Of a stretch of 64,000 nt of DNA, positions 7,962 to 32,017 are shown in pieces. The stretch covers positions 1-64,000 of the forward strand of contig CANPYI010000002.1 of the NCBI GenBank assembly GCA_947588355.1, read 5' to 3'. Made by a program: the position numbers and the translations under genes. Position 1 is the first letter of the stretch. Each line of letters opens with the position of its first letter. The DNA is from an uncultured Clostridia bacterium. Its GTDB lineage: Bacteria > Bacillota > Clostridia > Christensenellales > UBA1242. The notes beneath the pieces were generated by a model. The model ran no database searches. It saw nothing but the letters and a program-made list of their open reading frames with translations, and had not been told where the DNA came from.

Positions 7962-8225
7962 TTATAAAATAACGCCCATTTGCCTTGCTTTTTCCAAAAT
8001 TTTTTCGTCACTGACTTTTTCTATCATCACATCTTCGCCGTCAAGTTTTTCGTTCACAAGCACAAGTGGAAATTTTTCTATGTCAAAAAAGTCGTTTTTA
8101 TTGCCAACCGGAACTTGTCTAACAACAAGATAGGTGTTTTCGTCAATTTCAACTTTGTCATAAACTTGATATTCAATCTTATTTTCCAAAAAGAAGGCAT
8201 CGCCGATATTGAAAATTGTTTCCAT
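7962..8225 (-). CDS. Small acidic protein of unknown function
   Basis: An 87-residue soluble protein that I do not recognise with confidence. It is rich in short beta-type segments (IEYQVYDKVEI, TYLVVRQVP, FPLVLVNEKL) and ends in a short helix. The general look is like small DUF1292-type beta proteins, but the match is weak. It starts three bases after the stop of the upstream membrane gene with a GGGAGA ribosome site, so the two are one transcription unit and presumably act together. A terminator follows directly. Confidence 0.55.
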   Translation of the reverse strand: METIFNIGDAFFLENKIEYQVYDKVEIDENTYLVVRQVPVGNKNDFFDIEKFPLVLVNEKLDGEDVMIEKVSDEKILEKARQMGVIL

Positions 8226-8228
8226 TGT

Positions 8229-9017
8229 TCAGTTCTCCCTTTCTTTCATGCCAGGTTTTGCATTTTGTGTTTCGTTGATGTTGATTTGATTTTCCAGCGG
8301 CAGAGCCACTTTTTCATCATTTACTTCAACGGTGGCAAAATTGTCCAAGCCCAAATCTTTGAATGTGTCCTCACGAAAATCATTCATAAATTTTTTAAAT
8401 TTGCCATGAGACATCTTTTTTTGTGCCTCCATAATGACATCTTTGTTGGAGTCAATCACTTCTTTGTATTTTTCAACGGCATCAATAAACTTTTTGAGCG
8501 TTTTTTCGTAATCTCTGCCTTTTGCAGTCGAATCAGCCTTGTTGAATTTTTGTCGTTTGCCGTACTTGAAAGTTGTGATCAAAAGTGAAGCGGCGCCCAA
8601 AGCAAAGCCGGCAATTGACAACAATCCCGAGGCGGCCGTTGACAAAGCAATCAAACCAAGCCCACTGACAATCCCTGAGCCCATATTGAAAATAAGGTTT
8701 CTTCTGTCGCTCTTTTCTGTTGCAACAGCGCCGCGCCATACATTGCGTTTTTCTTTCAAAAGTTGCTTGTCTGTTGGAGCATCAACAACCGAAGTTGTTT
8801 CAAGTTCCTTAAGGTCCTGATAATATTGCTTCAATTCTGCATTTGAGTTGATGACATTTTGAAAAAGTTTTTCTTTAATTTTTTCAAATTTTTTTGCTTC
8901 TTTTTTCTCATTGCGGCTGACAAAATAGTCATGCATTCTTTGTTTGACAGGCACTTTGTCATCAGTTCCAAGAATTTCTCCCGGAATAAAACCAACCACT
9001 TTCATAGCATTTTCCAT
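8229..9017 (-). CDS. Membrane-hairpin protein of unknown function
   Basis: A 262-residue protein with a charged helical N-terminal half (residues 25-105, probably coiled coil), a glycine- and alanine-rich hydrophobic hairpin at about residues 107-150 and a lysine-rich helical C-terminal half. The layout suggests a protein inserted in the membrane by a short hairpin with both ends in the cytoplasm. No family is recognised. I chose the ATG preceded by AAAGGAGGAG; an in-frame start eight codons upstream has no ribosome site. It is the first gene of a two-gene unit with a consensus promoter and a possible operator just upstream. Confidence 0.65.
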   Translation of the reverse strand: MENAMKVVGFIPGEILGTDDKVPVKQRMHDYFVSRNEKKEAKKFEKIKEKLFQNVINSNAELKQYYQDLKELETTSVVDAPTDKQLLKEKRNVWRGAVATEKSDRRNLIFNMGSGIVSGLGLIALSTAASGLLSIAGFALGAASLLITTFKYGKRQKFNKADSTAKGRDYEKTLKKFIDAVEKYKEVIDSNKDVIMEAQKKMSHGKFKKFMNDFREDTFKDLGLDNFATVEVNDEKVALPLENQININETQNAKPGMKEREN

Positions 9018-20264: not shown

Positions 20265-20471
20265 TTATTTGCCACAACCACAGCCGCAATTTGACAAAAT
20301 CAACAACAAAAGCAAAGTGTCGCAATCAATGTTGATACCTTTAAAGCCACCAAAACCGCAACCGCAGTTTTGTAAGAGCAAAAGCAGGAAGATAAGAGAG
20401 CAGCAGTCAAAACCGCCGTTTCCGCAGTTATCCCCTACATTGCCACAATTTGAGCCTCCAAAAAAGTTCAT
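20265..20471 (-). CDS. Small Cys/Gly/Leu protein with an internal duplication
   Basis: A 68-residue protein. After a Gly/Asn/Cys-rich start it has two similar units: FDCCSLIFLLLLLQNCGCGF and IDCDTLLLLLILSNCGCGCG. Each is a short Leu/Ile-rich hydrophobic stretch followed by NCGCG. The stretches are too short to be sure membrane helices. Small Cys-rich proteins with a hydrophobic run are common in spore-forming Clostridia and may belong to the spore surface, but that is only analogy. It has AGGAGG and a strong terminator, so it is a real gene. Unknown function. Confidence 0.65.
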   Translation of the reverse strand: MNFFGGSNCGNVGDNCGNGGFDCCSLIFLLLLLQNCGCGFGGFKGINIDCDTLLLLLILSNCGCGCGK

Positions 20472-20663
20472 TTGTGCCTCCTAAAAAAATTCTTATGTAC
20501 GACTTTTATGTGCTTAAAACCTTTGCACATTAACAATTTATTAAAAACTTACAAAAAATGTGTCACCAATTTTCTTATCACAAAAATAAATGTTATTTTT
20601 TAGCCCTTTTGTTGTTTTTGACGCAGATTGTTTTTGTTTAAATTAAAATTTTCTTCAAGTTCT
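20472..20663. other. Gene-free stretch between the Cys/Leu gene and the SPFH operon
   Basis: AT-rich sequence before the operon promoter. I see no gene, repeat or RNA motif in it beyond the divergent promoter regions. Confidence 0.5.
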
Positions 20664-20693
20664 TTGACTTTGTTAGAATTTTTTTGTTATACT
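20664..20693 (+). promoter_or_regulatory. Promoter of the ESCRT-like operon
   Basis: TTGACT, 18 bases and TATACT preceded by TGT (extended -10). The first ATG lies about 30 bases downstream with GAGGA before it. This is the only clear promoter until after 24.7 kb. Confidence 0.8.
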
Positions 20694-20723
20694 AACCATG
20701 TAAAAGTCTATCTTTGAGGAAGT

Positions 20724-21560
20724 ATGGAACAAAAGATCATAAATTTTACGGGAAACAACGACAAACTGTTTTGCAGAATTCCAATCAACACTTTGTCGCC
20801 AAAATTGACACTTATTGTGCCGGAAACGCACAACGCCATTCTTATTAAAGACGGACAAATGCTTCAAACTCTTTCTTCTGGAAAATATCTGCTTTCCAAT
20901 TTTGTGGATTTGAAAACAGAAATTGATTGCGTTTTGGAAGTTTTGTTTCTCAGCAAAACTGCAAAATTAAAATTGCTGTGGGGGACAAGTCAAAAGACAG
21001 AACTTTTTGATGACACCTTAAATGAAAGTTTTCATGCAGGACTCAGCGGAGATTTTGAAGTGCAGATTGGCGATCCAAGAAAGTGCTATCTTTATCTTGT
21101 GGGGGCCTCAGACGACCTGACAGCAGAAGAATTGCAAGAGAGATTACGCTCCAATGTTGTTTCCGTTGTGGAGTTGGTTATTTTGGACTATTTGAAAGAA
21201 AACCACGTGCCATTCAATCAAATCGCATCTCACAAAAAGGCGATGTCACAAAAAATTTTGACGGCGCTTTCACACAAACTTCAAAGTGAATATGGCATTT
21301 CGGTATTTTCTTTCAATATTGCAAACATAATAATCGACAGCGATGATTATCAGCGTTTGAGTTCATTTTCAAAGCCAGCAAAGTCTGCCTTTTGTGCAAA
21401 CTGTGGTGCCGAAATCTTGGACGGGACAAAATTCTGCTCAAATTGTGGCCACAAGATTGGCGGAGGAAAGATTTGTCAATTATGTAGTGCAGAAAATCCT
21501 GAAGATGCAAAATTTTGCCAAAATTGTGGAAACAAACTTCAAAGGAGTGACAAATGTTAG
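20724..21560 (+). CDS. SPFH-domain protein with two C-terminal zinc ribbons
   Basis: A 278-residue protein. Residues 25-215 look like the SPFH (band 7) fold of the YdjI/virion-core-protein group, beginning with LIVPETHNAILIKDGQ and a loop SSGKYLLSN. Two zinc ribbons end the protein: C224, C227, C238, C241 and C251, C254, C265, C268. SPFH proteins gather in oligomers on membranes and can recruit partners; zinc ribbons usually bind proteins. No membrane helix is seen. It is the first gene of the operon that also carries the ESCRT-III-like and Vps4-like genes, and its stop overlaps the next gene's start by seven bases. A scaffold role at the membrane is inferred. Confidence 0.72.
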   Translation: MEQKIINFTGNNDKLFCRIPINTLSPKLTLIVPETHNAILIKDGQMLQTLSSGKYLLSNFVDLKTEIDCVLEVLFLSKTAKLKLLWGTSQKTELFDDTLNESFHAGLSGDFEVQIGDPRKCYLYLVGASDDLTAEELQERLRSNVVSVVELVILDYLKENHVPFNQIASHKKAMSQKILTALSHKLQSEYGISVFSFNIANIIIDSDDYQRLSSFSKPAKSAFCANCGAEILDGTKFCSNCGHKIGGGKICQLCSAENPEDAKFCQNCGNKLQRSDKC

Positions 21561-21961
21561 CGTTTTATATAATTGTGATGATTGCCATTGTTGGATTTGC
21601 GGTGTTTTACATCGTGCGTGAGTATATCAAAAAGCCTCGTGAAGAAAAACTTGGTGGCACAAAAGGTGTTCTTAAAAACAAAAAACAAATAGAAAACATG
21701 GTGGCAAATGTTGAAAGTATCATCGTTTATGCCAACGGAAACGACACTCTTTGTCGCAGATTGGTGGAAGTGAAAGACAACATAAGATTCTTCAATCCAA
21801 CAACCGACCCAAAAGTGCTTTTGGTGGACAGCAAACTTTCCAATCGCCTTGACGACCTTAAGATAATGGTGGCAAAAGACAACACACAAGAAACATGTTT
21901 TCGGGTGCTGGAAGAAATTGAAGCATACATAGTTCAGCGTAAAAAGGACGAAAACGGATGA
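21554..21961 (+). CDS. Small single-pass membrane protein
   Basis: A 135-residue protein with one N-terminal membrane helix (about residues 2-21) and a basic stop, so the bulk should face the cytoplasm. The rest is helical and mixed in charge, with KKQIENMVANVESIIVYAN near the middle. It resembles no family I know. The ATG follows AAAGGAG inside the end of the SPFH gene, and its own stop overlaps the next start (ATGA). Tight coupling suggests it anchors the complex formed by its neighbours. Confidence 0.6.
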   Translation: MLAFYIIVMIAIVGFAVFYIVREYIKKPREEKLGGTKGVLKNKKQIENMVANVESIIVYANGNDTLCRRLVEVKDNIRFFNPTTDPKVLLVDSKLSNRLDDLKIMVAKDNTQETCFRVLEEIEAYIVQRKKDENG

Positions 21962-22317
21962 AAAGAACTTATCAAGCGTCCACAAATCTGGACAAAGAAA
22001 CAACTGAAAAAGTGCTACGAGAGTTGAAACTTGGATATTTGAATCTTGAAGATGGCTTTTTTGACGAAGCGGAAACAAATTTTCGACTTTCACTTGAATT
22101 TGACCCAAATTGTGCAGATGCGTGGTGGGGACTTAGCCTTTCAAAATTTCAAATTTCAAACGAAGACCAGTTGTTTTCAAATCCAATGCAGTACAAAAAC
22201 ATAACAATGCTTGATGAGTGCAAAAATGCTCTTGAATTTGCCGATAATTCACAAAAAAACATCTTCAAAAGTTTGCTTGAAAGCATTGACAAAATAAACG
22301 AGGGGGACAATTATTGA
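21958..22317 (+). CDS. TPR-like adaptor protein
   Basis: A 119-residue helical protein. Residues 22-75 contain a TPR-type helix pair: LKLGYLNLEDGFFDEAETNFRLSLEFDPNCADAWWGLSLSKF. The spacing of small and aromatic residues and the DPNCADAWWG turn match this repeat. The remainder is helical. It would act as an interaction module. It overlaps both neighbours by a few bases (ATGA upstream, TGATG downstream), so stoichiometric synthesis with the ESCRT-like proteins is likely. Confidence 0.65.
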   Translation: MKRTYQASTNLDKETTEKVLRELKLGYLNLEDGFFDEAETNFRLSLEFDPNCADAWWGLSLSKFQISNEDQLFSNPMQYKNITMLDECKNALEFADNSQKNIFKSLLESIDKINEGDNY

Positions 22318-22931
22318 TGTGGTGGCCATTTAAAAGAAACAAATTTAAAAACTTAAATCGAGAGGACCTTGTAAACTCCATCTGCGAGTTGGAACGTCAA
22401 GAACGCACTGTGGAAGCGGAAGTTTTGCAAAAACTGAAAGAAATCGATGCTCTTGTTGACAAGGGGAAGAAAGAAAAAAATCACGATTTGCAACTGTTTT
22501 ATGCCAAAAAGATTGCACACTTGAACGAAGAAAAACAAACTTGTATGGAACGCGGAATGTACTTGCTTTACAACATTCGCCTTATGAACAAACTGAAGGA
22601 AGCATATGACAGCAACACATTTTTCAAAACTCAAACAAAAGTTCCTCTTTCCGAACTTTTGGCCGATCAAAAACGTTTGGCAAAGTTTTTGAACAAGGCT
22701 TTGGAAACAAGAATTGCCAGCGAAGATGTGTTGACCTCTGCAGACGAACTTTTCACGGAGGTGCAGTCGGCATATGAAGTAAGTCAACCAATTTATGGAA
22801 TTGGCAAAACTGAAGACGAAATTTTGACAATGTTTGAAAAAGAAAATGCATTAAATGACGAACAAGAACTGTTGGAACAAAATGACAAAGCGCAGACAAA
22901 TAAAAAGAAAAAAATGAAAATGGAGGAATAA
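22317..22931 (+). CDS. Coiled-coil protein, possible second ESCRT-III-like subunit
   Basis: A 204-residue, almost all-helical protein. It opens with MWWPFKRNKF, a short aromatic and basic segment that could sit in a membrane surface, as the N-terminus of ESCRT-III proteins does. A long helical hairpin follows (about 16-55 and 58-98), then shorter helices (110-130, 136-160) and an acidic stretch at 165-190 before a basic tip (KKKKMKMEE). The alternation of a basic first half and acidic later half is like ESCRT-III, though weaker than in the next gene. I chose the ATG overlapping the previous stop, with a GGGGGA site. Confidence 0.55.
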   Translation: MWWPFKRNKFKNLNREDLVNSICELERQERTVEAEVLQKLKEIDALVDKGKKEKNHDLQLFYAKKIAHLNEEKQTCMERGMYLLYNIRLMNKLKEAYDSNTFFKTQTKVPLSELLADQKRLAKFLNKALETRIASEDVLTSADELFTEVQSAYEVSQPIYGIGKTEDEILTMFEKENALNDEQELLEQNDKAQTNKKKKMKMEE

Positions 22932-22935
22932 AAAA

Positions 22936-23529
22936 ATGGCACTTTTCAAATCAAAACAACAAAAAGAAATCGAAAAAAAGATGCTTATCAAACGCACAAT
23001 CAACACAATGAACAAACAGATCGATCGCTTGGAGGAACAAAAACAGGTGTTTATTGATGCTGCAAAGCGAGCAAAAATGAAAGGACTTGATGCGCAATTC
23101 AATCTTGCTCTTTCTGGATACAAAATGACAATACAACAACAAAAACGCGCTCAAGAGATGCTGTTGAATTTTGAAATTACTGCACAAATGAAAGATGTCA
23201 CAATGATGACATCAGAATTTTTACGCGGAATGAGTGACATCTCAAAAGAAATGACCAAACTTGCTGACGCCAAAGAATTTGCCAAAATCCAGGCTCAGTT
23301 TGAGGAAGCAATGCTTGCAGTTGAAACTCAAACAGACCAAATGGACAACTTTATGGAAATGAGCCAGGAAACTTTTTACAATGCCGGCAAAGACAAGAGT
23401 GGCAAAGGAATGTCTGATGAAGATTTTGAAAAGTTTATTATGGAGCAAGCAAGCCAAGATGAACTTTCTGCCGAAAATATTGACAAAGAAATGGAAGAAG
23501 TCAGAAAAAAGATTGACAGCGAAGTTTGA
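22936..23529 (+). CDS. ESCRT-III/Snf7-like membrane-remodelling protein
   Basis: A 197-residue all-helical protein with the Snf7 layout. The N-terminus MALFKSKQQK is like the MGLF start of CHMP proteins. Residues 11-48 and 49-90 form a basic helical hairpin (RLEEQKQVFIDAAKRAKMKG, then ALSGYKMTIQQQKRAQEML), corresponding in pattern to the core helices of Vps2/CHMP proteins. Residues 92-150 continue as helices with ISKEMTKLADAKEF and QTDQMDNFMEMSQETF, which match the alpha4-alpha5 pattern. The last 50 residues are acidic and end in IDKEMEEVRKKIDSEV, an amphipathic helix where MIT-interacting motifs sit. ESCRT-III proteins polymerise on membranes. The next gene encodes a Vps4-like ATPase. Homology is inferred from pattern, not from alignment. 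Confidence 0.65.
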   Translation: MALFKSKQQKEIEKKMLIKRTINTMNKQIDRLEEQKQVFIDAAKRAKMKGLDAQFNLALSGYKMTIQQQKRAQEMLLNFEITAQMKDVTMMTSEFLRGMSDISKEMTKLADAKEFAKIQAQFEEAMLAVETQTDQMDNFMEMSQETFYNAGKDKSGKGMSDEDFEKFIMEQASQDELSAENIDKEMEEVRKKIDSEV

Positions 23530-23543
23530 TTTTTTGGAGAGTT

Positions 23544-24686
23544 ATGAAAGAAGAAAAAAATATCAATGTTTTGTCAGAAACTTTTGAACTTTACATGAAA
23601 AAAGGCAAACAAGCACGCGAAAAAGGCAATTATGCACTTGCCAAGCGTAATTTTTTGCTTGCAAGCGAAACTATGATGCAAATGGCAAAACAAAGTCAAG
23701 GGAAATTGAAAGAAGTGCGCATGGAAAGAGCACGCGGACTTGTGAAGATTTCCGACAATCTTGGAAAAACTCCAGTGAGTGCCAAAAAGGACGATAAATC
23801 TGATCAGCAGGAGGACGACGACCTAAAAAAATGGCAAACGGCGGAAATTCCAAACATAACTTTTGATGATGTTGCAGGACTTGACGAAGTGAAAAAAGCA
23901 ATCACAATCAAAATGATCAATCCTGCAAAATATCCCGAAAAATACAAAATGTATGGCAAAAAAACGGGTGGAGGAGTGCTTTTGTATGGGCCTCCGGGCA
24001 CAGGAAAAACCATGATTGCCAAAGCCATAGCAAATGAAGTTGGCGCAAAGTTTTATGCCGTCAAAGGAAGTGATATTGTCAGCAAATGGGTGGGCGACAG
24101 TGAAAAAAATATCAACTCCCTTTTTGCAGAAGCCAACAAGCAAGACAAAGCAATAATTTTTATTGACGAGATGGACAGTTTAATTGGCAAACGCGGACTT
24201 GACACTCACAACGACAAACGTGTCAATGAATTTTTGCAACAGATTGATGGTTTCTCTGGAAGAAATCCAAATCTTCTGCTTTTGGGAGCGACAAATAGAC
24301 CGTGGGATATTGACAGCGCGGCAATGAGAAGCGGGCGATTTTCTCAAAAAATTTATCTTCCACTTCCAGACGCTCCAGCGCGAAAATTTATGATTGAAAA
24401 AAGCATGAAAGGTGTGCCTGTTGCAAAAGATTTTGATGTGGACAAAATTGTTTCACAAACGCAGATGTACAGCGGCGCAGACCTGGAAGAACTTTGTGAC
24501 CGCGCAAAAGACGAGCCTCTTTTGCAAGCAATTGCCACCGACAAAGTTGTGCTTGTGACTAATGCAGATTTTGACAGAGTTCTTGAAAGCATGCCTCCAA
24601 GTGTGACAGAAAAAGAACTTTTGGAATTTGAAAAATACAATGCAGAGGTGAATGGCTATATAACAAAAAAGAAAGCAAAAAAATGA
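23544..24686 (+). CDS. Vps4-like AAA+ ATPase with MIT-like N-domain
   Basis: A 380-residue AAA+ ATPase. Residues 8-72 form a three-helix region like an MIT domain (FELYMKKGKQAREKGNYALA, then SETMMQMAKQS). An acidic linker follows (82-96). The AAA cassette has GPPGTGKT (149-156), pore loop KWVGDSEK (181-188), Walker B IIFIDEMDS with D208 and E209, sensor GATN with N251, and arginine fingers R262/R265 in MRSGRF. IYLPLPDAPAR and the C-terminal VLESMPPSVTEKELLEFEKY match the Vps4 family ending, but the Vps4 beta-domain is missing. Such enzymes unfold ESCRT-III subunits through the pore. I chose the ATG preceded by GGAGAG. It lies 14 bases after the Snf7-like gene. Confidence 0.75.
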   Translation: MKEEKNINVLSETFELYMKKGKQAREKGNYALAKRNFLLASETMMQMAKQSQGKLKEVRMERARGLVKISDNLGKTPVSAKKDDKSDQQEDDDLKKWQTAEIPNITFDDVAGLDEVKKAITIKMINPAKYPEKYKMYGKKTGGGVLLYGPPGTGKTMIAKAIANEVGAKFYAVKGSDIVSKWVGDSEKNINSLFAEANKQDKAIIFIDEMDSLIGKRGLDTHNDKRVNEFLQQIDGFSGRNPNLLLLGATNRPWDIDSAAMRSGRFSQKIYLPLPDAPARKFMIEKSMKGVPVAKDFDVDKIVSQTQMYSGADLEELCDRAKDEPLLQAIATDKVVLVTNADFDRVLESMPPSVTEKELLEFEKYNAEVNGYITKKKAKK

Positions 24687-24709
24687 AAAGACGCAAACTG
24701 CGTTTTTTT
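24686..24709 (+). terminator. Weak terminator inside the cluster
   Basis: ACGCA and TGCGT pair around AAC, extended by a G-U and four A-T pairs, then seven T. It separates the ATPase gene from the large zinc-ribbon/GLUG gene 20 bases on, and may reduce expression of the latter. Confidence 0.65.
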
Positions 24710-24728
24710 GTAATTTGAAAGGTTGAAG

Positions 24729-27700
24729 ATGAGAGAAAGAATTTGTAACAATTGTGGAGGAAAAAAGTACGAAGTTGTTGGACAAAACATGGTCCGATGT
24801 ATGTTTTGCGGCACTTTGTATGTGGACGAACAATCTTCCAAAGAAGAAGAAGTTTTGGTCGTCCAAGCCAATGACCTTTCAAGAGAACAAAAGTTTGCGG
24901 AAGCCGTGGAAGAATTTGGAAGAATAATTTCCATATATCCATATTCTTTTGAGGCATATTTTGGCAGAGCACTTGCAAAAAACGAAATTGTGCTTTATTC
25001 AAATCGCAAAGGCACTTCACGGAGGCCGCGTTTTTTTGGCGACAATATTGTTTCTATTTCGGAAGACGAAGATTTTAAAAAAGCAATGCAACTTGCACCG
25101 CCAGAACGTGCCAAGACTTTTTCGGAATATGCCAAACGAATTGATCGCATAAAAAATGCTTATCAAACTTCAAAAAAACAAGTTTATGATTGCATTTTTT
25201 GCACTTTGGGTGAAGATGATTCCAAGCAAGTTGCCGATGAAATAAGAAAAATCATAAACAAAAACGAATTTTCCGCTTACGATTTGCACAATCTTTTGCA
25301 AAAAGAAAAAGAGGAAGACACTTTTCGCGCTCTTGAAACAGCAAATGTGCTTTTGTTGTTGGCTTTTTCTGACGATGGATTTGCCGAAATTAAACATATT
25401 TTTGACAGATATTTTTATCTGATGAGCAAACGCAAAAAGGCAAAAGCAAGTTTCATTTTTGCATATGACAAAAATGCAATATCTTTGTCAAACTTTCCGA
25501 AGGAACTGACAAAAGCCAAAAATTTGATTGATATAAATTCAAACTCTTTTTTGCAAGATTTTGAGTCACTGCTTAAGACTGAAATGAAAAATGCCAGCAA
25601 GGAAACAGCCAAAATAGAAACAATCAAATTGCAAAAAGTTTCACCAAAGAAAAAGGAATATGTTGATGTTGAGGCCATAACGCCTCAGGACCTTGGACAT
25701 TATGTTGTGGAAAATGTTTCTGCCGGAGAAGAAGCAAGAAAAAAATGGCTGTTTTTATCTTTGAAAAATGGCGATTTTCAAACGGCGGAAAAACAAATCC
25801 AAGAGGGGCTTGAAACAGACCCTTATGATTGTGAACTTTTGTTTGCCCAACTGCTTTTTGAGAAAAAAATAAAAACCCCAGAAGAGTTTTTTGGAGATAT
25901 TGGAAATTTTCATGACAAAGAAAAGATAGACAATATTTTGCGATATGCAAATCAAGAGTTTGCCACCAATTTTATTTCAAAGTGGTCGGACTTGGTCGTT
26001 GAAAATGATGATTTGGATATTTACAGCACTTATCTTACATATCTTGCATCTTTCAAAACTCCAAACAGAGAAAATTTGATTTACAAGGCTGAAGAAAAGG
26101 CAGTTGAAACTGAAAATCCAGAGCTTATTGAAAAAGTTGTCAAGTGCTTTGACAAAACGCAGGTTGACAGATTTGTCAATTTTTACTACAGTCTTGCGCA
26201 AAAAACCGGAAATCAAGCCTATTACAAAAAAATTTTGGAGTTGGATGCCGGCCACGAACAAAGCAACATTGCACTTTTGTTGAGGAATTTTAAAACAACA
26301 GAAGATATCCTGTCTTTTCGCGATAAGGATGTTGTGGAAAATGCCTTAAAATATTTGGACGAATCTGGACGGGTTTCTTTTGTTTGTGCGGTGATTGATA
26401 TGGTGCTTCCGGTTGCATTTTTTGATTTGCAAAAAGCTGAAAAGCAAATTGACTTTTATTTATCCTACATTCAGGAGCAAGCAAAACTTGCTCTTCTTGC
26501 AGAAAATGTTGCCGACAAATTTGCTGAAATGAGATTCTTTAAGCAAGCAGAAAAATATCTCGCAATTGCCATTTCAAAAAACAACAAGTCGGGATTGTAT
26601 TGGAAACTGATCAAGGCTTTATGTCATTGTCAAACCGATCAAGAACTTATCATTTCCAAAGCCAAACCGGCCGATCTTCCGGAATGGCAAACACTTTTGG
26701 AGGTTTGTGACGACAAAGAGGCCGAAAAATATGGAGCCATTGTCAGCAAAAACAATTTGTACAAGGGCGCGCGAGAAAGCATTCTGCCTGACACACTTGA
26801 CAAGGTGGAAGTTGAAGCAAAATTGAAGGACTTTGTTTCCAGAAACGAAAAAGTTTTGATAGAGATTGAAAAACAAGAAGGTTTGTCTGCAAAGAAGGGA
26901 ATTGATTACTTTAAAATGCAACTTAAACCTTTTGAAAAATACATTCAGTCTATCGAAAAAGCAGGAACTTTTGAAGAATTTACACAAATTTTGGAAAGAA
27001 TTTACGAGCGATTGGGAATTTTGAACCTCACATTAGATTCTTCGGTGAATGTTGTTGAACTTACAAGCCGAAATGATGCCTTGAAAAAAGTTTTGCCAGA
27101 ACAAGATGCTGAAGATAAACACTTAAAACAACTTGAAAAAATCCGTAAAAACAAATTTATACTGCGTTTTTGCTGCATTTTTTTGGAATTTTTTCCGCTT
27201 GCTTTCACAACGCTGCTTCTTCTTGTTTCAGCGATACAGCCGAAAGAAGTATATTTGTATTTTTCGCAAAAATTTTTGATTGTGACGCTTATTTATTCGG
27301 TTATTGTTGCGGGCGTCAACATTGCGTACTATGTCATAAAGAAACAAAAAATAACAAAAAAACAGATGGTCATCTACTTGTCTTTGTTTTTGCTTGGAAT
27401 CATAAATCTTTTGCTGTTTTGCACAAGTTTTTATTTTATTCCAACAAAAATAACCATAAGAAATCAATCAGAACTTCAAACACTCTTGTCAAATGCAAAT
27501 TTTTCAAGTTTCACTTTGCAAGAAGACATAACTTTTGAAGGACATTGGCAAAAGTCCAACTTTTTTGGAGTTTTTGAGGGCAACGGTCACATTATTTCGG
27601 GTCTTGACGATGCCCTTTTCAACCAAAACAGTGGCACGGTCAAAAATCTTGAGATTGACACCGATTTGAAACTGAGCAAATGCTCAAGATTTGGGGTTTT

Positions 27701-28361
27701 TGCCATAGAAAATCATGGCGAATTGGAAAACATCGTTGTCAGCGGAAATCTGACTGTTTCCGATGCAGCCACTGTTGGAGGAATTGTCGCAGAAAACGAT
27801 GGCGACATGGTTGCTTGTCAAAGCAGAATGCAAATTGTTGTTGAAAGGTCAAAGGATTGTTTTGTTGGAGGGCTTGTGGGACAAAATCACAGTTCCAAAA
27901 AACAAAACAATTTCCAGCAAAGTTTGTTTGAAGGCTCTATAACACTCACGGCAGATGATTGTGCCTTGAATGTTGGCGGATTGATTGGCTATTCGCATGG
28001 CAGATTGACAAAAATTTCCGGCAACAACTCAATAGCAAACATAATCATTTCTGGCGGAAAAAACATCTCTGCAGGTGGATTGATTGGCTATGGCGAGGGG
28101 GCAAGCGACAACAACAGTGTTGACGCGGTGATTTCCACAAACAACACTCAGTCAGGTTTTGTTGGCGGCTTGTACGGACGATATGTAAATTTGCAACATC
28201 TTGACGAGCAACTTAAGGATAGCACTTGCAAACTGCAATATCAGGGCAATCTGAAATATGGCATCTTGGTGGGCTATTTGGCAGGGCGTGTCAATGGTGA
28301 CAGTTGCACTGCGGAAGGCAAAGGTGAGTTGTTTGGCGAGCAAAATTTTCTTGGAGGCTGA
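24729..28361 (+). CDS. Large zinc-ribbon, TPR, membrane and GLUG-repeat protein
   Basis: A 1210-residue protein in four parts. A zinc ribbon opens it (C6, C9, C24, C27). Residues 40-800 are helical, with TPR-like pairs (LSREQKFAEAVEEFGRIISI; FLSLKNGDFQTAEKQIQEGL). Three membrane helices lie at about 807-905. After the last helix the chain should be outside: the C-terminal 300 residues hold GLUG-type repeats (VFEGNGHIISGL, VGGLVGQNH, NVGGLIGYSHG, AGGLIGYGEG). Thus it could link cytoplasmic partners to a surface beta-helix. The ATG follows AAAGG. It is the last gene of the ESCRT-like cluster, behind a weak terminator. Confidence 0.65.
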   Translation: MRERICNNCGGKKYEVVGQNMVRCMFCGTLYVDEQSSKEEEVLVVQANDLSREQKFAEAVEEFGRIISIYPYSFEAYFGRALAKNEIVLYSNRKGTSRRPRFFGDNIVSISEDEDFKKAMQLAPPERAKTFSEYAKRIDRIKNAYQTSKKQVYDCIFCTLGEDDSKQVADEIRKIINKNEFSAYDLHNLLQKEKEEDTFRALETANVLLLLAFSDDGFAEIKHIFDRYFYLMSKRKKAKASFIFAYDKNAISLSNFPKELTKAKNLIDINSNSFLQDFESLLKTEMKNASKETAKIETIKLQKVSPKKKEYVDVEAITPQDLGHYVVENVSAGEEARKKWLFLSLKNGDFQTAEKQIQEGLETDPYDCELLFAQLLFEKKIKTPEEFFGDIGNFHDKEKIDNILRYANQEFATNFISKWSDLVVENDDLDIYSTYLTYLASFKTPNRENLIYKAEEKAVETENPELIEKVVKCFDKTQVDRFVNFYYSLAQKTGNQAYYKKILELDAGHEQSNIALLLRNFKTTEDILSFRDKDVVENALKYLDESGRVSFVCAVIDMVLPVAFFDLQKAEKQIDFYLSYIQEQAKLALLAENVADKFAEMRFFKQAEKYLAIAISKNNKSGLYWKLIKALCHCQTDQELIISKAKPADLPEWQTLLEVCDDKEAEKYGAIVSKNNLYKGARESILPDTLDKVEVEAKLKDFVSRNEKVLIEIEKQEGLSAKKGIDYFKMQLKPFEKYIQSIEKAGTFEEFTQILERIYERLGILNLTLDSSVNVVELTSRNDALKKVLPEQDAEDKHLKQLEKIRKNKFILRFCCIFLEFFPLAFTTLLLLVSAIQPKEVYLYFSQKFLIVTLIYSVIVAGVNIAYYVIKKQKITKKQMVIYLSLFLLGIINLLLFCTSFYFIPTKITIRNQSELQTLLSNANFSSFTLQEDITFEGHWQKSNFFGVFEGNGHIISGLDDALFNQNSGTVKNLEIDTDLKLSKCSRFGVFAIENHGELENIVVSGNLTVSDAATVGGIVAENDGDMVACQSRMQIVVERSKDCFVGGLVGQNHSSKKQNNFQQSLFEGSITLTADDCALNVGGLIGYSHGRLTKISGNNSIANIIISGGKNISAGGLIGYGEGASDNNSVDAVISTNNTQSGFVGGLYGRYVNLQHLDEQLKDSTCKLQYQGNLKYGILVGYLAGRVNGDSCTAEGKGELFGEQNFLGG

Positions 28362-28366
28362 ATTGT

Positions 28367-28394
28367 GACCAAAGTTTGACTTTGGTCTTTTTTT
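28367..28394 (+). terminator. Terminator of the ESCRT-like cluster
   Basis: GACCAAAGT and ACTTTGGTC form a nine-base stem around TTG, followed by seven T. Confidence 0.88.
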
Positions 28395-28433
28395 ATGAAA
28401 CAAAACATAGGCTTTTTACATATCTAATTTTGT

Positions 28434-28463
28434 TTGCAATGAATATTTTTTTTGTTATATAAT
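28434..28463 (+). promoter_or_regulatory. Promoter of the ABC exporter operon
   Basis: TTGCAA, 18 bases and a perfect TATAAT, about 28 bases before the ATG. Confidence 0.75.
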
Positions 28464-28490
28464 AGGTTGCAAATCACAGAGGCACAAAAA

Positions 28491-30215
28491 ATGTTTAAAT
28501 TATTGAAAAATCTTCAAACAAAAGATTATCTTTTTATGATTCCGATGCTGGGACTTATTATAATGCAAGTGTGGCTGGATCTGGAACTTCCAAAATACAC
28601 CGAAACTTTGATAAACCTTATCGGAAGCGAACAAATCGACCTTAACGCCATTTTGGTGAATGGTGGCTATATGCTTGCTTGTGCAATAGGCAGTCTGGGT
28701 TGTGCGATTGCTGTTGGTTTTATTGTTGCAAACATAGCGGCAAGATTGACTTACAACATAAGAAACAGAATTTATGACAAAATTCAAAATTTTTCACTTG
28801 CTGAAATAAACAAATTTTCAACAGCAAGCCTTATCACTCGCACAACAAATGATATCATGAATATCCAATTTTTCTTTGCGATGGGCTTGCAAGCACTTTT
28901 AAGAGCACCAATCATGGCCATTTGGACAATTACAAAGATTGTCGAATCAAACTGGCAATGGACAACTGCAACTGCTTTGGCAATTGGCATCTTGGTGCTG
29001 ATGGTTGCGTTTGTTGTGATTTTGGCAATTCCAAAATTTAAAAAGATTCAATCTTTGACAGATGATGTCAACAGAATCACTCGTGAAAACCTGACCGGCA
29101 TACGTGTTATACGTGCGTGCAACGCAGAGGAATATCAAAATGTAAAATTTGAAAAAAGCAACGACCAAATCACAAAAACAATGCTTTTTGCAAACAGAGT
29201 TATGGCGATAATGAATCCGGGCATGAATCTTTTGATGAGCGGACTTTCGCTTGCGATATATTGGATTGGCGCTTACATTGGCACACCAAATGTCATAGGG
29301 CTTATGCCAAAATTTATGAGTTTTTCCATGCTTGTCATCATGGCTTTCATGATGCTGATTATGGTTTTTATACTTTTGCCACGTGCACTTGTCTCGGCAA
29401 AGCGCATAAACGAAGTTTTGGACACCAAAGACAGTATGGTTTCAGGTGATTACAAAGATGAAAAATTTGACGGCACAGCAAGTGTTGTTTTTGAAAATGT
29501 TTCATTCAAGTATCCCGATGCTGACGAATATGTTTTGCACAATATTTCTTTTTCTGTTGCAGAGGGCGAAACGGTGGCATTTATCGGCTCGACAGGAAGC
29601 GGAAAAAGCACACTGATAAATCTGATTCCAAGGCTTTATGATGCCACTGAGGGAAGGGTGCTGTTGGACGGAGTTGACGTCAAGGACTATGATTTTGAAA
29701 CACTCAACAAAAAGATAGGCTATGTTCCTCAAAGGGGTGTTTTGTTTAAGGGCACTGTTCGAAGCAATGTCAATTATGGTGACAACAATGCCAGCGACGA
29801 CACTTTGAAAGAGGCAATATCTGTGGCACAGGCATCAAATTTTGTTGGAAAAATGAACGGCGGCATTGATGCCGAAATTGCTCAAGGAGGCACAAATGTT
29901 TCCGGCGGTCAAAAACAACGTCTTTCTATTGCAAGGGCAGTGGCAAGAAAGCCAGAAATATTCATTTTTGACGACAGTTTTTCCGCACTGGATTACAAAA
30001 CAGACAAAAAATTGCGCGCAGCACTGAAAAAGCATACCGGAAAAGCAACTAAATTTATTGTTGCACAACGTATAGGAACGATTATGGACGCGGACAAAAT
30101 AATTGTGCTTGACAACGGCAATATGGTCGGCATTGGCACTCATGAACAACTTCTTAAAACTTGCCCTGTTTATCAGGAAATAGCCCTTTCGCAACTTTCA
30201 AAGGAGGAATTGTGA
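28491..30215 (+). CDS. ABC exporter half-transporter A (degenerate site)
   Basis: A 574-residue half transporter with six membrane helices (about residues 15-310) and an ATPase domain. The Walker A motif is GSTGSGKS, the signature VSGGQKQR, and Walker B reads IFIFDDSFSALD: the catalytic glutamate is replaced by aspartate. That is typical for one partner of heterodimeric exporters such as TM287/288, where only one site hydrolyses ATP. I chose the ATG nine bases after GAGG; longer frames begin with TTG codons in the promoter region. The second half follows with an overlapping TGATG, and together they should export a drug, lipid or peptide; the cargo is unknown. Confidence 0.88.
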   Translation: MFKLLKNLQTKDYLFMIPMLGLIIMQVWLDLELPKYTETLINLIGSEQIDLNAILVNGGYMLACAIGSLGCAIAVGFIVANIAARLTYNIRNRIYDKIQNFSLAEINKFSTASLITRTTNDIMNIQFFFAMGLQALLRAPIMAIWTITKIVESNWQWTTATALAIGILVLMVAFVVILAIPKFKKIQSLTDDVNRITRENLTGIRVIRACNAEEYQNVKFEKSNDQITKTMLFANRVMAIMNPGMNLLMSGLSLAIYWIGAYIGTPNVIGLMPKFMSFSMLVIMAFMMLIMVFILLPRALVSAKRINEVLDTKDSMVSGDYKDEKFDGTASVVFENVSFKYPDADEYVLHNISFSVAEGETVAFIGSTGSGKSTLINLIPRLYDATEGRVLLDGVDVKDYDFETLNKKIGYVPQRGVLFKGTVRSNVNYGDNNASDDTLKEAISVAQASNFVGKMNGGIDAEIAQGGTNVSGGQKQRLSIARAVARKPEIFIFDDSFSALDYKTDKKLRAALKKHTGKATKFIVAQRIGTIMDADKIIVLDNGNMVGIGTHEQLLKTCPVYQEIALSQLSKEEL

Positions 30216-32017
30216 TGAAAAATAGGAAAAAATTAAACACAATTTCAAACAAACGTGTGAAAGATGGCTCTTTCAAAAAGAGTATGAAAAAACTGCTTAT
30301 GTTTTGCCGCAAATATTGGGGTTGGCTTGCTTTGTCCATCATTTTGGGCGGCATTGGTGTTGCTTTTCAAATCATCGGTCCAAACAAAATTGCTGATATT
30401 ACGGTTTTGATTGCAACGGGTCTAAGATCGGGTGGCATTGATTTGAAAGCCGTTTCAGAAATAGGTATATTTTTGGTGATAATTTATTCTTTGGGTGCAA
30501 TTTTGTCCTATTTTGAGCATTTCATTTTGACAACTGTCACTCAAAAAGTTTCCAAAAAATTTAGGCACGATATTTCACACAAAATCAACAAACTTCCACT
30601 CAATTATTATGACACGCATATGTTTGGCGACATTCTCAGCAGAGTTACAAACGATGTTGACCGCGTTGGGCAGAGTTTGAATGAAAGCATAGGTAATTTT
30701 TTCCATAATGTCATTTTGTTTTTGGGCGTGCTTGTGATTATGCTTGTCAAAGATTGGGTATTGGCACTGACTGTGATTGGTGCAACCATAATTGGCTTTG
30801 CGTTGTCGTTCACGTTTATGACTCGTGCACAAAAATATTTCAATCAAAATCAGAAACATCTTGGGCAACTCAATGCGCATATTGAAGAGGTATATACTGG
30901 TCACAATGTCGTGCAACTTTTCAATGCAAAAGAAGACACAAAAAAGCAATTTGCAAGCACAAACAAAAAACTTTTGTCAACAGGGTGGAAGTCGCAATTC
31001 ATTTCGGGCGTCATGGGGCCAATAATGGGCTTTGTCGGCAATTTTGGCTATGTTGCGGTGATTATTGTAGGTGCAATTATGGCACTTAATAAAGATGTAA
31101 CTTACATCGGCCGAATAACTGAGTTTATGATATATGTACGACTGTTTGCCAATCCACTTTCGCAAATTGCACAAAGTTTGACAAGTTTGCAAGCAACTTC
31201 TGCAGCAGCAAATCGTGTGTTTGACTTTTTGGAAGAAAAAGAACTGCCCGATGAAAGTGGTATTACACAAAAACTTGAAAACGTTAAGGGCAATGTAAAG
31301 TTTGACAAAGTCGTGTTTGGCTACAATGAAGGCAAGATTGTGATAAAAGGTTTTTCTGCAGATGTAAAGGCAGGGCAAAAAATTGCCATTGTTGGTCCAA
31401 CCGGTGCGGGCAAAACTACGCTTGTGAATTTGCTTATGAAATTTTATGAAGTCAATTCTGGGGACATAATAATTGATGGCGTTTCAACAAAAGATATCAC
31501 GCGAGAAAACGTCCATCAACTTTTTGGAATGGTTTTGCAAGACACATGGCTGTTTGAGGGCACTATCAAGGAAAATCTTAGATACAACACAAAAAATGTC
31601 TCTGACCAAGATATCGTTGAAGTATGCAAAAAAGTTGGAATTGACCATTTTATTCAAACACTTTCTCATGGCTATGACACAGTGATTGATGATTCGGTCA
31701 ATCTTTCGGCAGGGCAAAAACAACTTCTGACAATTGCCCGCACAATGATTGAAAACAAGCCGATGATGATTTTAGACGAGGCGACAAGTTCTGTGGACAC
31801 ACGTACCGAAGTTTTGCTCCAAAATGCTATGGATAAAGTTATGGAGGGTCGCACATCTTTCATAATTGCACATCGTCTTTCAACAATCAAAAATGCCGAT
31901 CTGATTTTGGTGCTTAAAGATGGCGACATAGTGGAAAAGGGAGATCACAAAACGCTGCTTGAAAAGGGCGGATTTTATGCCGATATATACAATAGCCAGT
32001 TTTCCGAATCAAATTAA
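30215..32017 (+). CDS. ABC exporter half-transporter B (active site)
   Basis: A 600-residue half transporter, partner of the preceding gene. A basic N-terminal tail of about 40 residues leads into six membrane helices. The ATPase domain has Walker A GPTGAGKTT, signature LSAGQKQLL and a normal Walker B MMILDEATSSVD with the catalytic glutamate. The start codon overlaps the stop of the partner (TGATG) and follows AAGGAGG. The MdlB/YheH-type heterodimer is the closest common family. Nothing in the neighbourhood identifies the cargo. Confidence 0.88.
   Translation: MKNRKKLNTISNKRVKDGSFKKSMKKLLMFCRKYWGWLALSIILGGIGVAFQIIGPNKIADITVLIATGLRSGGIDLKAVSEIGIFLVIIYSLGAILSYFEHFILTTVTQKVSKKFRHDISHKINKLPLNYYDTHMFGDILSRVTNDVDRVGQSLNESIGNFFHNVILFLGVLVIMLVKDWVLALTVIGATIIGFALSFTFMTRAQKYFNQNQKHLGQLNAHIEEVYTGHNVVQLFNAKEDTKKQFASTNKKLLSTGWKSQFISGVMGPIMGFVGNFGYVAVIIVGAIMALNKDVTYIGRITEFMIYVRLFANPLSQIAQSLTSLQATSAAANRVFDFLEEKELPDESGITQKLENVKGNVKFDKVVFGYNEGKIVIKGFSADVKAGQKIAIVGPTGAGKTTLVNLLMKFYEVNSGDIIIDGVSTKDITRENVHQLFGMVLQDTWLFEGTIKENLRYNTKNVSDQDIVEVCKKVGIDHFIQTLSHGYDTVIDDSVNLSAGQKQLLTIARTMIENKPMMILDEATSSVDTRTEVLLQNAMDKVMEGRTSFIIAHRLSTIKNADLILVLKDGDIVEKGDHKTLLEKGGFYADIYNSQFSESN

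Follow-up and report, generated by a model that had tools for sequence, protein, structure and literature searches.

An ESCRT-type operon in a Clostridia bacterium

We describe a six-gene operon at positions 20724-24686 of a window of 64,000 nucleotides (the whole stretch of DNA analysed here; contig CANPYI010000002.1, assembly GCA_947588355.1) from an uncultured Clostridia bacterium whose genome assembly is 928 kb long and 95% complete. By sequence homology the locus is well supported as a bacterial operon of the endosomal sorting complex required for transport (ESCRT), pairing an ESCRT-III protein (g5) and a likely second one (g4) with a Vps4-type AAA+ ATPase (g6). We consider it probable that the genes form an ESCRT system: polymers of g4 and g5 would reshape the membrane, and g6 would extract subunits through an MIT-MIM1 contact.

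The genes, named g1 to g6 in order, encode an SPFH protein with zinc ribbons, a small membrane protein, a TPR-like protein, the coiled-coil proteins g4 and g5, and the ATPase (Table 1). All six open reading frames (ORFs) have in-frame start and stop codons, and their tight spacing, already described in the initial annotation, is borne out: neighbours overlap by 7 (g1/g2), 4 (g2/g3) and 1 (g3/g4) bases or are separated by 4 (g4-g5) and 14 (g5-g6). The gene order, for which a search of relatives had been suggested, recurs in related genomes and is therefore not a chance arrangement.

Table 1. Features of the operon and its surroundings (positions in the window).
Feature	Position	Strand	Basis
Promoter-like site TTGACT-18-TATACT, TG before second hexamer	20664..20693	+	motif scan
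g1, SPFH/Band_7_1 domain with two zinc ribbons	20724..21560	+	Pfam
g2, small protein	21554..21961	+	sequence
g3, TPR-like protein	21958..22317	+	weak TPR matches (Pfam)
g4, likely second ESCRT-III-like coiled-coil protein	22317..22931	+	profile matches, hhalign
g5, ESCRT-III (Snf7/CdvB-like) protein	22936..23529	+	tblastn, Pfam on ortholog, predicted helix layout (AF2)
MIM1-like C-terminal helix of g5 (IDKEMEEVRK)	23479..23508	+	pattern I[DE]xx[LIM]xx[LIV]
g6, Vps4-type AAA+ ATPase	23544..24686	+	Pfam, profiles, AAA tree
Predicted MIT domain of g6, residues 7-71, three helices	23562..23756	+	AF2 prediction and profile
AAA cassette of g6 (GPPGTGKT, IIFIDEMD, MRSGRF)	23976..24365	+	Pfam AAA, 145.8 bits; sequence
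Hairpin with T-run, possible terminator or attenuator between g6 and g7	24691..24709	+	read from sequence
g7, zinc ribbon-TPR-degenerate TIR-TPR-membrane segments-repeats, 1210 aa	24729..28361	+	domain reading, conserved position
Terminator-like hairpin 3' of g7	28367..28387	+	terminator scan

The ATPase is of the Vps4 type

Both the N-domain and the AAA module of g6 are homologous to archaeal-type Vps4. The g6 profile matches the Vps4 ATPase of a Thermococcus peptonophilus plasmid locus (L120; loci compared with the window carry L-numbers) at E 4e-72 over profile positions 9-368 in a set of 14 sequences from that locus, and the two proteins are 30% identical over 392 columns. In Pfam, the AAA match is joined by AAA_lid_3 (31.4 bits, cut-off 27.2), and Vps4_C reaches 20.7 bits in the window against a cut-off of 21.3 and 24.6 bits in the relative at L029. 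A beta-domain was noted as absent in the initial annotation. Against NCBIfam CdvC, g6 scores 197 bits, below the cut-off of 650, and we therefore do not call it CdvC; the best matches in four archaeal genomes (437-587 bits) likewise fall under that cut-off.

An unrooted tree of AAA domains places Cdc48, PAN and FtsH apart from g6 and Vps4 with support of 98/92, and a branch with 100/100 support has 20 bacterial rows on one side. This tree holds 40 rows and leaves katanin and eukaryotic Vps4 outside; of the 44 rows of an earlier version, which included long first-AAA-domain rows, it omits three of that kind and L118. Within that sampling, the cassette behaves as the initial annotation had expected in not grouping with FtsH-like or p97-like proteins.

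The N-domain of g6 is predicted to be an MIT domain. Its AlphaFold2 (AF2) model is a three-helix bundle with a predicted local distance difference test score (pLDDT) of 89.7, its top matches in the PDB are MIT domains, the best being that of Sulfolobus Vps4, and its profile aligns with the N-domains of archaeal-type Vps4 at E 3e-9 (hhalign). The Pfam MIT family itself matches one of 12 g6 relatives, at E 0.026. The three-helix MIT bundle proposed in the initial annotation is thus consistent with model and profile alike.

Longer ATPases, in which an extra AAA module lies between the N-domain and the Vps4-like AAA, occur at L029:8859-10874, L107:4290-6377 and L111:4815-6950. The extra module matches AAA_lid_6 in the L029 protein, and we take it to be CbbX-like.

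Two candidate ESCRT-III proteins

The g5 protein has a homolog in an archaeal ESCRT-type locus. A tblastn search of 72,556 plasmid records returned a single match, the T. peptonophilus plasmid protein (E 5e-8, 26% identity over 96%), close to which L120 carries genes for a serine/threonine kinase, the Vps4 ATPase, a PP2C phosphatase and two more coiled-coil proteins; in the 14-sequence set of this locus the g5 profile finds the same protein at E 2e-19. Further support comes from the g5 ortholog at L099, in another family of the same order, which matches Pfam Snf7 at 34.0 bits (cut-off 27.3), above all the CdvB-type matches in four archaeal control genomes (20.9-27.9 bits). Snf7 is also matched by nine of 31 g5 relatives at E up to 1, the highest count for any family, tied with one other. 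It is through these family members, the ortholog and the Thermococcus match, that g5 can be assigned to ESCRT-III by homology. The AF2 model (pLDDT 72.7) has helices at residues 7-48, 52-107, 112-150, 161-174 and 180-196, which fit the ESCRT-III layout.

A second ESCRT-III-like protein is likely encoded by g4. In a set of 18 sequences its profile picks out Chx_1 (E 6.8e-7) and TK_7613 (E 8.4e-5), both from archaeal-type ESCRT loci, and hhalign against eight proteins of such loci (six archaeal, two from the Chlorohelix plasmid locus described below) gives a probability of 88% and E 2.9e-6 over the N-terminal 89 columns, compared with 0.2% for each mismatched control pair. Support for g4 is weaker than for g5, because Pfam and PDB give no match and the likeness between g4 and g5 is weak; a g4 search of the plasmid records also returned no match.

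Several results weigh against the assignment of both proteins. Neither g4 nor g5 of the window matches any Pfam family up to E 1, and searches of the PDB with g4 profiles found no ESCRT-III. Comparison of the g5 model with known folds ranks CdvB first and CHMP chains within the first 20, none of them significantly. In addition, a VIA-align comparison of the g5 model did not discriminate, and PDB profile searches with the Thermococcus g5 homolog alone or with the combined g5 alignment A12 found no ESCRT-III. The Snf7-like nature that the initial annotation gave to the fifth protein therefore stands on the side of sequence homology, with the fold unproven by structure comparison. In hhalign against five crenarchaeal CdvB proteins g5 gave nothing significant and g4 nothing; it was the euryarchaeal loci that proved informative.

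These data also bear on an alternative by which g4 and g5 would be unrelated coiled coils and g6 a common AAA+ chaperone whose adaptor is TPR-like. Such an arrangement would accord with the missing Pfam matches of g4 and g5 and with the g6 N-domain sequence profile, whose best matches are TPR repeats. It leaves unexplained the Thermococcus match of g5, the L099 score over the Snf7 cut-off, the profile matches of g5 and g6 to L120, the separation of the AAA domain from Cdc48, PAN and FtsH, the MIT model with its profile matches and the g4 alignment, and we regard it as very improbable.

A possible MIT-MIM1 coupling

The C-terminal helix of g5 resembles a MIM1 motif. The pattern I[DE]xx[LIM]xx[LIV], which was picked after the tails had been inspected, is present in 24 of 31 g5 relatives, mostly followed by Lys or Arg, while shuffled tails contain it in a mean of 0.47 of 31. 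These tails agree with the MIM1 consensus apart from its Arg, in whose place they mostly have Glu.

These features, by homology, suggest a mechanism: g4 and g5 would assemble into ESCRT-III filaments along the inner membrane face, and g6 would use its predicted MIT domain to grip the MIM1-like helix of g5. The ATPase would then pull subunits out of the polymer; this extraction would likely change the shape of the polymer, and the membrane would be bent, sealed or cut. From its context, the SPFH protein g1 may anchor the polymer to the membrane by analogy with the SPFH protein YdjI, which is described as doing so for PspA (Makarova et al., 2024; PMC10936438). The variable accessory genes of relatives may in turn link the system with damaged membranes or with attacking phages, and a role in membrane repair or phage defence can be inferred from this context. 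The reading of the locus in the initial annotation is supported, and the checks made on the conditions named there as refuting did not go against it. That annotation had spoken of a complete membrane-remodelling machine; its homologous ESCRT-III and Vps4 parts are found here, and the machine itself is still an inference.

Distribution in Clostridia and beyond

Systems of this kind, with accessory TIR-type, trypsin-like and BrxL genes, occur across one clostridial order. Of 347 genomes sampled from the order, 44 matched a g5 profile; they fall in 24 of 137 genera. Within the genus, 15 of 37 genomes have g5. Candidatus Caccovivens and other Clostridia records are among the named relatives of g5 and g6. 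Genome G026 has a piece of the ATPase at a contig edge together with g7 (L032), so carriers in the genus are undercounted. In wider samples g5 matched 5 of 391 genomes of the class and 2 of 398 of the phylum, none convincingly outside the order. We did not accept as real the sole class match outside the order (E 9.9e-4; its 1221-codon frame contains a stop) or the second phylum match (E 8.8e-4, in a 67-codon frame).

We further annotated 27 relative loci, chosen for holding g5 or g6 relatives, with gene types assigned by similarity to a few references. Genes of the g5 type and of the Vps4 type occur in 25 each, SPFH genes in 21, g4-type genes in 17 and g2-type genes in 12, while g3 turned up in loci of the genus only. 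A greedy choice of ORFs and cut contigs mean that absences in these counts are overstated: the L109 ATPase and the L113 g5 were missed through a longer frame on the opposite strand, and both can be seen in L075 and L093.

Another ESCRT-type locus of bacteria lies on a plasmid of Candidatus Chlorohelix allophototropha (Chloroflexota). The locus (L121:1-4655) holds two small coiled-coil genes, a kinase and a Vps4-like ATPase that shares 37.9% identity, over 98%, with the Thermococcus Vps4.

Relation to known ESCRT systems

In the survey by Makarova et al. (2024; PMC10936438), paired ESCRT-III/Vps4 systems are said not to occur in bacteria, and the euryarchaeal 'Main' ESCRT clade is described as Vps4 and ESCRT-III with a kinase/phosphatase. 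The Thermococcus locus L120 fits this clade, to which we assign it by gene content. Homologs of g4, g5 and g6 are each found there; unlike it, the window operon is without kinase, phosphatase and winged-helix genes, includes an SPFH gene, has relatives with TIR-type, trypsin-like and BrxL genes, and belongs to a bacterial host. Methanobacteriales Meth_adaptin ESCRT loci, known to us from their description in the same survey, also include an SPFH protein that has a coiled coil and a zinc ribbon, whereas their adaptin and GOLD proteins were not seen in the window operon.

The crenarchaeal Cdv system (CdvA, CdvB, CdvC) shares with the window the pairing of ESCRT-III with an MIT-bearing Vps4, and the g6 N-domain has its best structural match in the MIT domain of Sulfolobus Vps4. 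It differs in that no CdvA was seen, in that the g5-CdvB profile comparison is not significant and in that the host has FtsZ. An operon serving as a Cdv-like division apparatus would accord with an FtsZ-like gene (by eye) that immediately precedes the operon in L115 and lies a few genes before it in L106, and with a relative in which an ESCRT-III-like domain and an FtsK motor are joined in one protein. We nevertheless consider this improbable, given that FtsZ is encoded on another contig of the same genome and that 303 of 347 genomes of the order have no g5 match, so that division does not generally depend on the system.

The nearest prior art is found in PMC11237479 (2024): bacterial Vps4-like ATPases are thought to have been transferred from archaea, some bacterial Snf7 homologs are reported, and some bacterial operons pair PspA or Snf7 homologs bearing transmembrane (TM) segments with AAA+ ATPases. 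Where it reports transfer from archaea, a TPR-6TM protein has taken the place of Snf7, whereas the window has two ESCRT-III-like genes beside an MIT-bearing Vps4; the comparison with the sequences of that paper (ACB74714.1, OGG56892.1) is by description. In the open-licence literature, judged by titles and the openings of abstracts, we found no other report of a bacterial ESCRT-III and Vps4 operon. If the assignment is correct, an MIT-bearing Vps4 with two ESCRT-III-like genes in 24 of 137 sampled genera of the order (by the g5 search), together with the Chloroflexota plasmid locus, would change the phyletic picture of ESCRT and offer a bacterial setting for studying the ESCRT-III/Vps4 pair.

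Envelope stress, repair or defence

The Bacillus PspA-YdjI operon likewise combines an SPFH protein with a member of the ESCRT-III superfamily, though of the PspA class and with no Vps4 mentioned in the passage of PMC10936438 that describes it. The window operon could accordingly be a PspA-like envelope-stress operon in which ESCRT-III proteins replace PspA and the ATPase only recycles them, with neither fission nor defence. The SPFH neighbour, which the PspA-YdjI operon also has (PMC10936438; PMC8581546), would fit this, as would the lack of a PspA_IM30 match in the host genome, compared with nine of 14 control genomes that have one. We count the same lack of a PspA match, with the FtsZ gene on another contig, in favour of the ESCRT reading as well. 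Since the L099 ortholog matches Snf7 with no PspA_IM30 listed, the Vps4 partner bears an MIT domain and TIR-type, BrxL and trypsin-like genes lie beside many relatives, a PspA-like operon seems to us rather unlikely.

Those neighbours are a reason to consider anti-phage defence. On this reading the effectors would be TIR, trypsin-like protease or BrxL proteins, and the task of ESCRT-III and Vps4 would be to seal or isolate damage to the membrane. Among the 27 loci, TIR-TPR-type genes occur in 15, trypsin-like genes in 11 and BrxL-type genes in six, and family scans confirm those that were scanned: TIR_2 in L026, L106 and L114, Trypsin_2 in L025 and L118 (Pfam), and a full-length BrxL in L106 (PADLOC, 667 bits). 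Accessory genes vary from locus to locus, and the presence of the operon within the genus is patchy. Against this, the flanks shared by the window, L034 and L036 make the operon look settled rather than mobile in close relatives, PADLOC on the six core genes gives only AAA-type matches to g6 (IetA, TRIP13 and weaker ones), a search of phages yielded no g5 match, and the TIR domain beside the operon has lost a conserved Glu. Defence thus stays a tentative reading, to which we give somewhat less than an even chance.

The same guarded standing applies to the broader proposal of a true bacterial ESCRT-III/Vps4 machine, in which MIT-MIM coupling and two classes of ESCRT-III would serve a modular membrane defence, with TIR, trypsin-like, BrxL, FtsK and RuvB-like partners exchanged from one lineage to another. 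This would place ESCRT in bacterial immunity, which we hold possible without favouring it. The TIR-type, BrxL and protease partners nonetheless pose the question of whether membrane repair is joined to immunity in bacteria.

The TIR domain in question belongs to g7, a probable accessory protein that starts 42 bases past the end of g6 and is absent from the gene list of the initial annotation. It directly follows g6 in the genus loci L032-L036 and L117. The Glu of the TIR W-x-x-N-E motif is the presumed catalytic residue. In the TIR alignment the motif is kept in all eight proteins that are not close relatives (L029, of a divergent genus member, and seven of other genera), and the Glu is lost in window g7 and in six of six close relatives in the genus; the g7 TIR is therefore likely not an enzyme.

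Other genes, signals and genomic setting

Pfam matches above cut-offs confirm the SPFH domain and zinc ribbons that had been read in the first gene product (Band_7_1/SPFH 53.7 bits, cut-off 24; Zn_Ribbon_1 58.9; DZR 47.7), and g1 is likely a membrane-associated scaffold. An N-terminal hydrophobic stretch in g2 is seen in the window and in its close relatives L034 and L036, and not in L029 or L031.

A single promoter had been proposed for the operon, and a promoter-like site does lie upstream of g1. Such sites number 17 in positions 20400-28600, compared with a mean of 16.4 in shuffles, so they are no commoner than chance, and a single operon promoter is plausible but unproven. At the hairpin between g6 and g7 the terminator scan lists the minus strand only; the plus-strand hairpin and T-run were read from the sequence.

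A 131-aa gene upstream of the operon is present in 24 of 24 sampled genomes of the genus. Seven stretches from non-carriers anchored on it allowed no reading of an empty site: it lies beside translation genes (by eye) in six and beside other genes in L167. Downstream of the operon, at 28452-32014 in the window, lie a pair of transporter-like genes, by eye of the ABC type, which L034 and L036 have in the same place.

Fusions and neighbouring genes add further variety among the relatives. At L118:8509-10419 an ESCRT-III-like domain (residues 4-181) is fused to FtsK alpha and FtsK/SpoIIIE motor domains, and at L119:3969-5633 one is fused to a RuvB-like AAA (Snf7 24.5 bits, cut-off 27.3). The genes read by eye as FtsZ lie at L115:3322-4605 and L106:811-2115. 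In L036 a deaminase-like gene (by eye; 8012-8482) stands between the g5 and g6 orthologs.

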